This document shows, in pieces, positions 12,837-16,586 of a stretch of DNA of 17,484 nt (the stretch's first letter is position 1; each line of letters opens with the position of its first letter). This DNA comes from a bacterium. Its GTDB lineage: Bacteria; Patescibacteriota; Minisyncoccia; Phycocordibacterales; UBA2100. The notes under the pieces are model-generated. The model worked only from the letters and a program-made list of their open reading frames with translations, ran no database searches and had not been told where the DNA came from. Location of the stretch: assembly GCA_030698935.1 (NCBI GenBank), contig JAUYLR010000057.1, forward strand, positions 1 to 17,484. Reading direction: 5' to 3'. The translations under genes and the position numbers were made by a program.

Positions 12837-13181
12837 CTACCTGCTCCGCACAATGGTCACGCCGGGAATGCCACTCTCAAGTACCTGCGGTTTGCGAACC
12901 GTAACGGAAACCGCTTTTATTCTTTCGTCTTCAAGAATCCGTTTCGCTATTTTGTGCGCAAGCGTTTCTATGAGATGCGAAGACGGGCCTTCAATTACTT
13001 CCCGCGCGATTTCCGCAAAATCTTTGTAATTCACCGTGTCGGAAATCTCGTCCGATTCGGCTGATGCGCGCGTATCCGCTTCGGCAGAAATATCAATCTG
13101 GAATTCCTGCGCCACTTCTCGCTCACGGTCTGAAACGCCGTGCTTCCCTTTGAGCACTAATTTTTCTATGAATATCTTCAT
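12837..13181 (-). CDS. folB: Dihydroneopterin aldolase
   Basis: A 114-aa aldolase that converts dihydroneopterin to hydroxymethyl-dihydropterin and glycolaldehyde. LKGKHGVSDREREVAQEF (10-27), NYKDFAEIA (51-59) and SVTVRKPQV (92-100) match the family, with Tyr52 and Lys97 in the catalytic positions. The frame continues upstream to a TTG at 13217, but those 12 residues (RKRKLPISNG-like) are the end of the 122-bp repeat and recur before metE, so the ATG at 13181 is chosen. No Shine-Dalgarno sequence is present; the ATG abuts the repeat end. First gene of folB-folK-folP. Confidence 0.9.
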   Translation of the reverse strand: MKIFIEKLVLKGKHGVSDREREVAQEFQIDISAEADTRASAESDEISDTVNYKDFAEIAREVIEGPSSHLIETLAHKIAKRILEDERIKAVSVTVRKPQVLESGIPGVTIVRSR

Positions 13182-13301
13182 CCCGTTAGAAATAGGAAGC
13201 TTGCGCTTCCGATTCAAAAGCTAGGTGACGTAAAATCTCGACCAACGTAACGCATCCGATGAATATACCACAGACCTAACTTCCGTCATTTCTAACGGGA
13301 T
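13180..13301 (-). repeat. 122-bp promoter-leader element, folB copy
   Basis: Terminal inverted repeats of 14 bp (13180-13193 and 13288-13301, ATCCCGTTAGAAAT) bound an element of exactly the same length as the one before metE. Both copies share the first ~33 bp, the last ~20 bp and a central TGAATATA, with a variable middle. On the minus strand it contains TGGTATATT (13262-13270), an extended -10 directed at folB, and GGAAGC-GCAA-GCTTCC, a hairpin with a GNRA loop. ATGAA occurs at both ends; the inner one is the folB start. It fills the metF-folB spacer. Confidence 0.85.
13262..13270 (-). promoter_or_regulatory. Extended -10 promoter of folBKP
   Basis: TGGTATATT on the minus strand within the 122-bp element, 80 nt before the folB ATG, the same distance as in the metE copy. 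The leader would be about 74 nt and include the GNRA hairpin. Confidence 0.5.
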
Positions 13302-13309
13302 TCATAGTG

Positions 13310-14325: not shown

Positions 14326-16407
14326 CTATTTGCCTGCAACACCTGCTCGGAGGATTTTCACCGCTTGCATCATGAGTTCAAGTTGCGCCCATGCTTCCTC
14401 GCCGCGGGTTTTTAGGCCGCAATCGGGATTAATCCAAACCCTATGAGGGTCCATATCAAGCGAGTTGGGAATGGCGAGCATCTCCTCTACCGTGGGCAGG
14501 CGCGGGCTGTGCACATCGTATACGCCAAGCCCGATGGATGCCGGGAATCCTGAATCGCGGATTGAGGCGGCCACCTTACCCTTTGATTTGCTGTCTTCTA
14601 TGAGCAACACATCCGCACCCATGTCTTTAATCGCATCCAAGATATCATTGAATTCCGAGAAGCACATGTGCGTGTGAATTACCACTTCATCCGGCATCGC
14701 AGAGAAGACGAGCCGGAACGAATTCACCGAATGATGCAAGTAGTGGGCGTGACGGGCGGGATTAATAGGAAGCGCTTCGCGCAGAGCCGGTTCATCTATC
14801 TGAATGTGCTTGATGCCGGCCGAGGCGAGGTCTTTCACTTCTTCCGCGAGCGCACGGGCAACTTCATAAAAATGCGCCTCCTGCTCCATGTCTTCGCGGG
14901 GAAACGCCCACTTCACGATTGTGACGGGCCCTGTGAGCATTCCCTTGACCGGCTTTTTGGCGCACGATTGGGCATAGGTGCTCCATGGCACGGTGAACGG
15001 GCGCGGACGGCTGACAGGCCCCGTGATGACAGGCGGGCGGACATGCCGCGTGCCGTAGGATTGCACCGGCCCTTTGATGACGGTGAAGCCGGAAAAATTC
15101 TCGGCGAAGTACTGCACCATGTCGTTGCGCTCAAATTCGCCGTGCACGAGAAGGTCAAGACCCAGTTTCTCCTGCCGCTCCACGCACTCTTTCGTGAGCT
15201 TCTTCATGTAGCCTTCGTAATCAGCGAGGGTTTTCTTTCCCGCGCGCCAATCGCTCCGCGCCTTCCGCACATCCGCGGTCTGCGGAAAACTTCCGATGGT
15301 CGTGGTCGGATAGGCAATATCGCTCACCCAGTAATTCTTGCGCTTGCGCTCAAAACGCTCTTTCGGCAACGCGGGATTCTGCTGTGTGAAGGGGGCGTAC
15401 TTCGCTTTGCCGTCTTTCACTGTTTTCAGCTCCGCAATCTTTTCCTCGGCAAAAGAAAATGCACCCTTCTCGCCTTTGGCGGAAAGCGGCACATGCAAAA
15501 GCGAGCATGAGGGCGAAACGTACAACCGCTCTTCGGGAATTGACTTGCGCACCTCGGCAAGTAGCTTTTCTGTGCGCGCGGATACGGGCCAGACATTGCG
15601 ACCGTTTATGATGCCCGCGATAAGCGTCTTCTCTTTCGGGAAACGCGCCAAGAGCGAGAGGTTTTCGTGTCCGTCAAAGAAATCAAGGCCGATGCCCGCG
15701 ACAGGAAGAGCAAAGAGCCGCTCGGCAAAATCATTGACCGCACCAAAGTAAACGTGGAGATGCACCTGCCGTTTGATTCCCTTGAGGAAATCCTCATAGC
15801 CTTGCGGAATTCCCTTCGTGAGGAACGACGGTTCCTCTAACTGAACCTTTGTGTGTTCGGGGAGAGAATTAATGAACTTTTGATACTCCTTGGAAAGTAT
15901 GGAAAACAACTCCGGAATTGAACGTGATGTCGTGTTGATTGAATAGGCAAGAAGCGTCCACGGCCCGATGAGCGGCAAGATGTGGCGGGGTTGGGATAGG
16001 TCCGGCAAAGGCGCGTCTTTCTGCCACATCGGGTCGCGTTCAATTTCAGGCTGTACCACGTGGTAATTAGTATTGAACCATTTCACCATCGGCGACGCCT
16101 GCTTGTCTTTTATTCCCCGCGGAATTGAGAGATATGTCGCGAGCGATTTTATAGCGTCGGCCGGCGTGCCAAAGCGCGCGGGCACGATGCCGAAGCGGAC
16201 GGCAGTCGCCAGCATGCGGTCGTAGAGGTCAATTTCACCTACGGGAATGAGGTCAAGACCCTCCTGCGCAGAACGATTGTAGGCCTGCACATCGGCAAGC
16301 GCTTTGCGCACGTCTGTCTCCGTCGCCTCTCCTTTCCAAAACTTCTCAACGGTAACTTTGATGAGCGATTGGTAAACGTTCGGGAATCCTAAGTTTGTGA
16401 TTTTCAT
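14326..16407 (-). CDS. metE: Cobalamin-independent methionine synthase
   Basis: A 693-aa MetE that transfers the methyl group of 5-methyl-THF (polyglutamate) to homocysteine without B12. The C-terminal barrel carries zinc ligands His580 and Cys582 in THMCFSEF, Glu604 in LIEDS and Cys663 in NPDCGLKTRG. TTIGSFPQTADVRKAR starts that half and LLTGP-type GMLTGPVTIVKW and IQIDEPALRE follow. The N-terminal barrel is present but the protein is shorter than E. coli MetE (753 aa). The frame runs on to a TTG at 16443, but those 12 residues are the end of the 122-bp repeat, so the ATG at 16407 is chosen. Folate and methionine synthesis are uncommon in most small CPR genomes. Confidence 0.94.
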   Translation of the reverse strand: MKITNLGFPNVYQSLIKVTVEKFWKGEATETDVRKALADVQAYNRSAQEGLDLIPVGEIDLYDRMLATAVRFGIVPARFGTPADAIKSLATYLSIPRGIKDKQASPMVKWFNTNYHVVQPEIERDPMWQKDAPLPDLSQPRHILPLIGPWTLLAYSINTTSRSIPELFSILSKEYQKFINSLPEHTKVQLEEPSFLTKGIPQGYEDFLKGIKRQVHLHVYFGAVNDFAERLFALPVAGIGLDFFDGHENLSLLARFPKEKTLIAGIINGRNVWPVSARTEKLLAEVRKSIPEERLYVSPSCSLLHVPLSAKGEKGAFSFAEEKIAELKTVKDGKAKYAPFTQQNPALPKERFERKRKNYWVSDIAYPTTTIGSFPQTADVRKARSDWRAGKKTLADYEGYMKKLTKECVERQEKLGLDLLVHGEFERNDMVQYFAENFSGFTVIKGPVQSYGTRHVRPPVITGPVSRPRPFTVPWSTYAQSCAKKPVKGMLTGPVTIVKWAFPREDMEQEAHFYEVARALAEEVKDLASAGIKHIQIDEPALREALPINPARHAHYLHHSVNSFRLVFSAMPDEVVIHTHMCFSEFNDILDAIKDMGADVLLIEDSKSKGKVAASIRDSGFPASIGLGVYDVHSPRLPTVEEMLAIPNSLDMDPHRVWINPDCGLKTRGEEAWAQLELMMQAVKILRAGVAGK

Positions 16408-16527
16408 CCCGTTAGAAGTAGGAAGCTTGCGCTTCCGACTCAATAGTTATTGCTTGTAAGTACTTGACGCATGTAAAATGCCCGCTGAATATAACATATT
16501 CCAAACTTCCGCGACTTCTAACGGGAT
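16406..16527 (-). repeat. 122-bp promoter-leader element, metE copy
   Basis: 14-bp terminal inverted repeats (16406-16419 and 16514-16527, ATCCCGTTAGAAGT) bound the second copy, ungapped against the folB copy. The first 33 bp differ at two positions, the middle is diverged, and TGAATATA and CTTCCG near the far end are kept. On the minus strand it has TGTTATATT (16488-16496) and the identical GGAAGC-GCAA-GCTTCC hairpin, and ends at the metE ATG. A 39-codon ORF (MNPVRSRGS start) crosses the element; the folB copy has only MNPVRNDGS and a stop, so this reading is probably not functional. Confidence 0.85.
16488..16496 (-). promoter_or_regulatory. Extended -10 promoter of metE
   Basis: TGTTATATT on the minus strand within the 122-bp element, 80 nt before the metE ATG, matching position and sequence type in the folB copy. 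Confidence 0.5.
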
Positions 16528-16586
16528 TCATCGCGACATCATAGCATTTCATAAAATAGTATCCAATAGCTGGCCATAGCTTTGTT

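Follow-up and report, generated by a model that had tools for sequence, protein, structure and literature searches.

The locus raises the question of why two homologous segments of the same length should end exactly on the start codons of two genes. The window, the whole stretch of DNA that was analysed (17,484 bp), is one whole contig of a 679-kb draft genome that is 69% complete. According to the ORF list of the window, its minus strand carries the run metE-metF-folB-folK-folP and two further ORFs, which we take to be pyrF and pyrE; the other gene names are likewise assumed, in part from the sequence-only reading. The segments at bp 13180 to 13301 and bp 16406 to 16527 were confirmed to be ungapped 122-bp homologues ending at the ATGs of folB and metE. 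They form the top-ranked repeat of the window (132 nt at 76%; 75% over 122 bp by BLAST), and a BLAST search with the folB copy found more full-length copies elsewhere in the same draft genome. The 14-bp terminal inverted repeats (TIRs) claimed by the sequence-only reading are perfect in the folB copy, with ATCCCGTTAGAAAT at bp 13180 to 13193 and its complement at bp 13288 to 13301 (14 of 14 positions), and the GGAAGC-GCAA-GCTTCC hairpin was found as described.

The explanation we favour, at a probability of roughly three in four, is that the window's two copies, at folB and at metE, are non-autonomous representatives of a family of Patescibacteria mobile elements that insert at start codons and have a parent form coding for a GIY-YIG nuclease. 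The features of the two copies are as follows.

13181-13300, minus strand: folB copy of the element, 120 bp, a 118-bp core CCCGTTAGA..TCTAACGGG plus terminal T/A (from sequence and the logic of the duplication)
13180-13193, no strand: gene-proximal 14-bp TIR, 14/14 complementary to 13288-13301
13288-13301, no strand: gene-distal 14-bp TIR (from sequence)
13301-13304, minus strand: upstream target duplication TGAA, forming with the A at 13305 the stranded old ATG
13177-13180, minus strand: downstream target duplication TGAA, forming with the element's A at 13181 the folB ATG
13195-13210, minus strand: hairpin GGAAGC-GCAA-GCTTCC beside the gene-proximal TIR (from sequence)
13262-13267, minus strand: -10-like TATATT within the element, a possible internal promoter that is not general in the family (from sequence)
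12837-13181, minus strand: folB from the re-created ATG (ORF list)
16407-16526, minus strand: metE copy of the element (repeat search, BLAST, site printout)
16527-16530, minus strand: upstream target duplication TGAA of the metE copy (site printout, flanks)
16403-16406, minus strand: downstream target duplication TGAA of the metE copy (site printout)
16412-16531, minus strand: ORF of 39 codons that begins at the stranded left ATG, crosses the metE element and stops 4 nt ahead of the metE ATG, at a TAA in the TIR (translation; coordinates derived)
16538-16543, minus strand: -10-like hexamer TATGAT, 6 nt upstream of the stranded left ATG of the metE copy, a putative native promoter (flank sequence and position peak; coordinates derived)
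14326-16407, minus strand: metE from the re-created ATG; the ORF finder runs further upstream through the element

Element ends, target duplications and start codons

The ends of the family read YCCCGTTAGA...TCTAACGGGR, and printed sites together with paired-end parsing gave the general plan target-TGNN-Y-CCCGTTAGA....TCTAACGGG-R-TGNN-target. The end sequence ATTTCTAACGGGATGAA was matched 55 times in the 679 kb (at most 3 mismatches) and its reversed pattern not once, and the 10-mer YTCTAACGGG was matched 123 times against 5 for its control; with counts so far above the controls, the family is not a product of chance. Paired-end elements were parsed in the window's draft genome (G000, 45 elements) and in two genomes of the same genus (G003, 45; G023, 26). 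By shared sequence the latter two correspond to the Candidatus Kaiserbacteria records JACRFK010000004.1 and MFLD01000029.1, so that the genus of the window falls among the Kaiserbacteria. The pairs come from those of the single-end sites (123, 98 and 57, respectively) that were retrieved, with unpaired or diverged ends left out and 27-bp palindromes and nested elements included; 2 of the 116 have other end letters and belong to neither of the two classes below.

Insertion would fall between the first base of a start codon and its TG, duplicating TGNN, and the last base of the element would rebuild the downstream start codon, an A giving ATG and a G giving GTG. An element was counted as lying at a start if an ATG, GTG or TTG there opened a frame of 60 codons or more (30 where the locus ended). 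By this measure a start codon was found at 48 of 52 elements ending in T...A and at 27 of 62 ending in C...G. The other 35 C...G elements lie at sites such as TTGA, TCAA, TTCA and TAAA or have no clear duplication; to judge by the TTGA, TTCA and TAAA sites, the element can do without a start codon. As a scale for these counts, the listed gene starts make up 15 of the 551 ATGs in the window. The 4-bp TGNN duplication was identical in 62 of 75 start insertions of the three genomes and in 69 of 105 in a second set; in a few cases (e.g. L245, L261, L388) it is apparently 3 bp. An A precedes the upstream TGNN in 59 of the 62 with identical duplication, so that the old start codon is left stranded upstream as an ATG. 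Downstream, the last base of the element and the TGNN form the new start, ATG in 40 cases and GTG in 19 where the stranded copy is still ATG; L376 is the reverse conversion, from GTG to ATG. The ATGAA noted at both ends of the window's copies in the sequence-only reading is thus present, but is really a 4-bp target duplication, TGAA, plus an A borne by the element.

All 26 copies of 117/118 bp at starts have one orientation, with the hairpin end beside the gene. The start-codon sites have ATGNN in common, and in none of the 25 columns lying next upstream does a single base account for more than about 50%. This does not fit a homing endonuclease gene, whose insertion is confined to a long cognate recognition site. 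The ends, the duplications, the position on start codons and, as described below, the empty sites and the nuclease ORF between the same ends can all be read directly from the sequences. There is good support for regarding these as mobile elements that have inserted on start codons.

Several related arrangements were observed. At bp 1423 to 1449 of the window there is a 27-bp palindrome, CCCGTTAGAAGTAATCTTTCTAACGGG, just past a 378-aa S1-like ORF and followed by GTGAA, with no matching target duplication. Other 27-bp palindromes with family ends occur in L239 (bp 988 to 1014), L234, L277, L279, L284 and L286; the one in L239 (from G003) is an in-frame coding insertion in a dnaE-like ORF, with the frame open on both sides (..ILD-PVRGDASNG-AGKN..). 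Composites of about 225 bp in G000 (C8, C14, C27, C75, C80 and C90, in L075, L059, L062, L066, L069 and L077) consist of a 118-bp element with a nested CTGCCCGCC..GGCGGGC repeat, and have themselves multiplied, mostly at start codons.

Target genes, empty sites and distribution

The targets include smc, infC, rpmI, rplQ, glyS, yvcK, tsaE, his genes, leuB, folB and metE, named on our recognition of their N-termini without a family search. The sequence-only reading had proposed listing the genes downstream of further copies and looking for empty sites in relatives; the neighbours proved to be unrelated genes, and empty sites were found, an outcome that it had named as refuting a regulon. Among 52 genomes of the genus, infC was found in 46, and of 30 infC loci viewed the element is present in two (G000 and G003) and absent from 28. 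All 28 empty sites read ATGGG, which is the duplicated target of the filled loci, and in 21 of them it is preceded by AA, as in the filled ones. The window has an element at folB and none at metF, while G023 has one at metF and none at folB, as read on the plus-strand locus L299. The start codons of smc, infC and rpmI are occupied in several species, so insertions can persist, and tandem insertions at one start codon were seen in L101, L161 and L163. In L071 (near bp 2012; G000 C101:3511) a yvcK-like gene starts with GTA after the element, where G023 (L285) has GTG; this is possibly a lost or non-standard start codon.

A prokaryote-wide pattern scan with one genome per species gave at least 109 loci, those listed being from Patescibacteria groups by title or from records titled just 'bacterium'; 80 of these (L089-L168) were parsed, with a start-codon fraction that is biased by the pattern, which demanded an ATG at one end. 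One end pattern was found in 22 of 60 relatives, and a stricter pattern in 29 of 379 genomes of the phylum. In viral contigs the TIR pair had no match at core lengths of 82-112 bp, which leave out the 118-bp class, and a single end had four matches, which look like chance since no partner end lies in those contigs. With TIRs, a fixed 4-bp target duplication, dispersed copies and empty sites in relatives, the family shares these features with miniature inverted-repeat transposable elements (MITEs). The mobile, start-codon-supplying element that the sequence-only reading had offered as one of its two interpretations is thus supported, and can be extended by a coding relative with the same ends.

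A GIY-YIG-coding relative

Eight parsed elements are 240-330 bp long. Four of these contain a GIY-YIG ORF (L109, L120, L084 and G000 C82), and the other four are read as composites. All four proteins that were scanned matched PF01541. Besides L109, L120 and L084, 20 of 80 inspected GIY-YIG loci (47 from the genus and 33 from the phylum, a non-random sample of the best-scoring plus 20 picked from lists) lie between family ends with at most one mismatch per end. The cores of these 20 elements measure 272-314 bp. Thirteen end at the ATG or GTG of a long ORF. One more, L367, ends at a CTG that lies six bases ahead of an ATG. The 4-bp duplication is intact in only six of the 20.

In the best 120 of 2908 homologous clusters the N-terminus [MVL]xPVR was present in 97 and the C-terminus LSLTG in 98; as a rule the left end of the element encodes the MxPVR residues and the right end SLTG. 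Since 77 of the 97 [MVL]xPVR homologues have no other Met in residues 2-14, the start codon of the target is their only evident start. Six of eight in-frame loci have their stop in a GGA-TGA that spans the junction and overlaps the ATG of the gene; in L084 it is a TAA in the end, and in G000 C82 a TGA shortly before the end. Several nuclease ORFs, e.g. in L385 and L388-L391, do not lie in the frame of the left ATG and must start elsewhere; others contain an internal Met. The putative catalytic residues Y13, Y24, R32 and E70 are invariant in 20 aligned sequences from the same best 120 of 2908. Ten pairs were compared, of which 7 allowed dN/dS to be computed; the ratios were 0.08-0.22, values that are rough because dS exceeded 1 throughout. 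A nuclease relative (E 1e-15 or better) was found in 25 of 29 genomes with the end pattern and in 97 of 350 without it (p 5.5e-10), although the two criteria are not fully independent, as nuclease-bearing copies also carry the end pattern.

A parent form of about 275 bp would accordingly hold the nuclease ORF, which in its commonest version would begin on the start codon left by the upstream copy of the target (ATG-NN-Y-CCC-GTT-AGA, hence MxPVR) and end on a stop that the downstream copy supplies (GGA-TGA), overlapping the ATG of the gene. Because the 118-bp copies share the ends and the start-codon reading frame of this element, they likely derive from it as internally deleted forms, many of which would have kept an open frame ending in TAA-CGGG-ATG. 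We infer that the GIY-YIG nuclease mobilises the family.

Four further GIY-YIG ORFs, in L397, L403, L404 and L406 (near bp 1500), have other ends, CCCTGT or CCCAGT ... ACAGGGT or similar; some lie just upstream of gene starts, and they may represent sister element families. In L399 (bp 1486 to 1761) a GIY-YIG element with the ends CCCGTGAGA/TCTCACGGG interrupts a sequence that continues GAGGAAAGTCCG, which resembles an RNase P RNA motif.

Promoters, reading frames and the hairpin

In the target flanks a -10 hexamer (>4 bits) was placed 6-9 nt before the stranded ATG in 10, 9, 7 and 6 of 62 cases, against 0-3 at other spacings; the peak was weaker in the second set (5, 8, 3 and 5 of 72, with as many as 4 at other spacings). 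The counts for flanks and ORFs exclude elements that have an ORF on each side. A -10 near the ATG was found in 23 of 62 target flanks versus 15 of 66 genes without an element, and at the empty infC sites a -10-like hexamer lies 10-13 nt before the ATG in 24 of 28. Shine-Dalgarno-like motifs are rare: none in the 62 target flanks, 4 in the 72 of the second set, 3 in the 66 genes without an element and only 2 at 180 restored starts. This suggests that short or absent leaders are a general trait and not specific to the targets. With such leaders, transcription from the native promoter would start on or close to the stranded ATG, and as many target genes look leaderless, that promoter would express the nuclease first and then the gene by stop-restart translation.

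The element itself was earlier thought to supply a promoter, with a -10 about 80 nt from the ATG. The folB copy does have TATATT 81 nt from its ATG, but a -10 of more than 4 bits stands at this offset in only 11 of 26 copies of 117/118 bp, and an internal promoter was rejected as a general feature of the family. Promoter supply by the element is thus a weak proposition, the upstream flank often having a -10 near the old ATG.

The frame of the left ATG is open across the interior of 33 of 62 elements, versus 9 and 14 in the other frames and 11.6 ± 2.8 in shuffles, and in 29 of 72 in the second set, versus 14 and 11 and 8.4 ± 2.6; the counts cover the interior only, the shuffles are mononucleotide, and the other frames hold built-in stops near the left end. 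Once related copies were collapsed (120 elements to 83 clusters), the excess persisted in weaker form, at 35 open clusters against 13 and 18 in the other frames (Fisher p 1.2e-4); their stop counts gave no significant difference in a sign test (p 0.11). The commonest outcome for this frame is a stop at the TAA of the TCTAACGGG/ATG junction, 4 nt before the gene; at other element lengths it stops at the TGA of ATGA or fuses to the gene. The frame of the metE copy is open over 39 codons, and that of the folB copy is closed by an early TAG. Translation would then restart at the restored codon. A stem of at least 6 bp was found beside the gene-proximal end in 45 of 134 elements, versus a mean of 1.5 (maximum 6) in 50 shuffles. 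As the hairpin sequences are many and different, though about 20 are one family, and occur well above the shuffles, the shape appears to be kept.

Alternative explanations

The other possibility raised in the sequence-only reading was a folate/methionine regulon whose genes share an RNA leader or operator acting in cis. The two copies in the window do stand before one-carbon genes, and the gene-proximal hairpin recurs with changing sequence at far more than the shuffled frequency. We nevertheless regard a regulon as highly improbable, since it is already contradicted by the copies at smc, infC, rpmI, rplQ and glyS, targets that are functionally unrelated, and by the target duplications and empty sites. 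No Rfam match touched either element even at E 1; two matches (E 0.67 and 0.9) lie outside the elements, far below gathering scores. A regulon or riboswitch was ruled out on targets, duplications and Rfam together.

It is unlikely, but deserves more weight, that a MITE family is being moved in trans by an unseen DDE transposase, with the GIY-YIG gene as a passenger or second parasite in some copies. In favour of this account, DDE elements typically have perfect short TIRs and a 4-bp duplication, a DDE enzyme elsewhere in the genome could move the element, and the three genomes have 26-45 paired elements each as against 4-5 GIY-YIG genes of any kind. Against it, 1.56 Mb of partly redundant loci, most of them 2-8 kb, gave only three end pairs 0.3-6 kb apart (L096, L111 and L195, all 4.6-5.2 kb) that passed the arm and duplication filter, and the two ends in L111 belong to two separate short elements. 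The elements of 240-330 bp offer only GIY-YIG ORFs and composites, and the co-occurrence of end pattern and nuclease also speaks against this account. An IS1380-type transposase (PF13701) was over the cut-off in none of the 197 genomes of the order, with two weaker matches, and was rejected. The Y1 transposase PF01797 had no match in the element's own genome, which is 69% complete; this counts against a transposase of that type, and IS200/IS605 or RAYT-REP elements were likewise rejected. A closer contender, possible though somewhat short of an even chance, is that integration is not aimed at starts: TNNA-like sites would be hit, and start insertions in working orientation would survive, with the gene still expressed and removal hard. 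The C...G elements at TTGA, TCAA, TTCA and TAAA agree with such retention, and uniform orientation could be selected. However, off-start T...A elements are rare (4 of 52, of which two are nested at one locus and one lies near a contig end with mirrored flanks), and the tandem cases are repeated insertions at one start codon. In the favoured reading start codons would be targeted and not merely retained.

Comparison with known systems

Correia, RUP and ERIC-type MITEs are about 100-150 bp long, with TIRs, a short duplication and many copies, and may carry promoters upstream of genes. The present family resembles them in size, TIRs, short duplication, copy number and position upstream of genes. 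It differs in that the start codon itself is hit and the element gives its first base, and in that the coding relative found has a GIY-YIG ORF and not a DDE transposase. GIY-YIG homing endonucleases and free-standing homing endonuclease genes are known from I-TevI and Seg, which are likewise small GIY-YIG nucleases (predicted here) with conserved active-site residues and the only gene of the mobile unit; the family described here has, in addition, TIRs, a 4-bp duplication, many unrelated sites, and start and often stop codons borrowed from the target. The group I intron endonuclease model TIGR01453 (NCBIfam) was matched far below its cut-off. The UPF0213 proteins (PDB 1zg2, 1ywl) are alike in the sequence of the GIY-YIG domain, as compared by protein alone. 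The Ty3 retrotransposon also inserts precisely at gene start regions with a short duplication, but Ty3 is an LTR element of eukaryotes that goes to Pol III start sites, and the analogy is functional only.

Insertions in CPR rRNA genes that hold GIY-YIG genes and match no group I or II intron are described in the main text of PMC11270868, along with short ORF-less insertions, mostly <200 bp. The CPR hosts and the pairing of GIY-YIG with short ORF-less forms are alike, a likeness by description only; that paper treats rRNA genes, and nothing on TIRs or on sites at start codons was seen in it, the terms 'inverted repeat' and 'start codon' each having 0 occurrences in its main text. In L366 a GIY-YIG ORF lies directly after a 16S rRNA-like 5' sequence (GTTTGATCCTAGCTCAG), as in the rRNA insertions described there. 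No description of a start-codon element was recognised in the literature searched, which included PMC11270868 and PMC12455944 and had preprints and most subscription papers outside its scope.

Implications

Taken to its full extent, the element would be a minimal transposon whose sole enzyme is a GIY-YIG nuclease of about 94 aa, without a start, stop or promoter of its own. It would enter the start codons of leaderless genes, the target copies would start and end the nuclease and restart the gene, and the short copies, of which a genome holds tens, would be derivatives acting as short upstream ORFs. We hold the chances of this complete scheme to be about evenly balanced. For annotation there is a practical warning, as ORF callers stretch proteins into such elements; the ORF finder prolonged both folB and metE upstream in this way. 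Mobile elements normally break their targets, whereas here even essential start codons (infC, smc, rplQ and glyS) appear to be safe sites, because the element gives the start codon back. If true, the scheme would account for part of the small GIY-YIG genes of Patescibacteria, named for example 'excinuclease ABC subunit C' or 'putative endonuclease'. It would also represent a transposition-like process without a known transposase, and in uncultured bacteria it would serve as a natural experiment on leaderless initiation and stop-restart translation.
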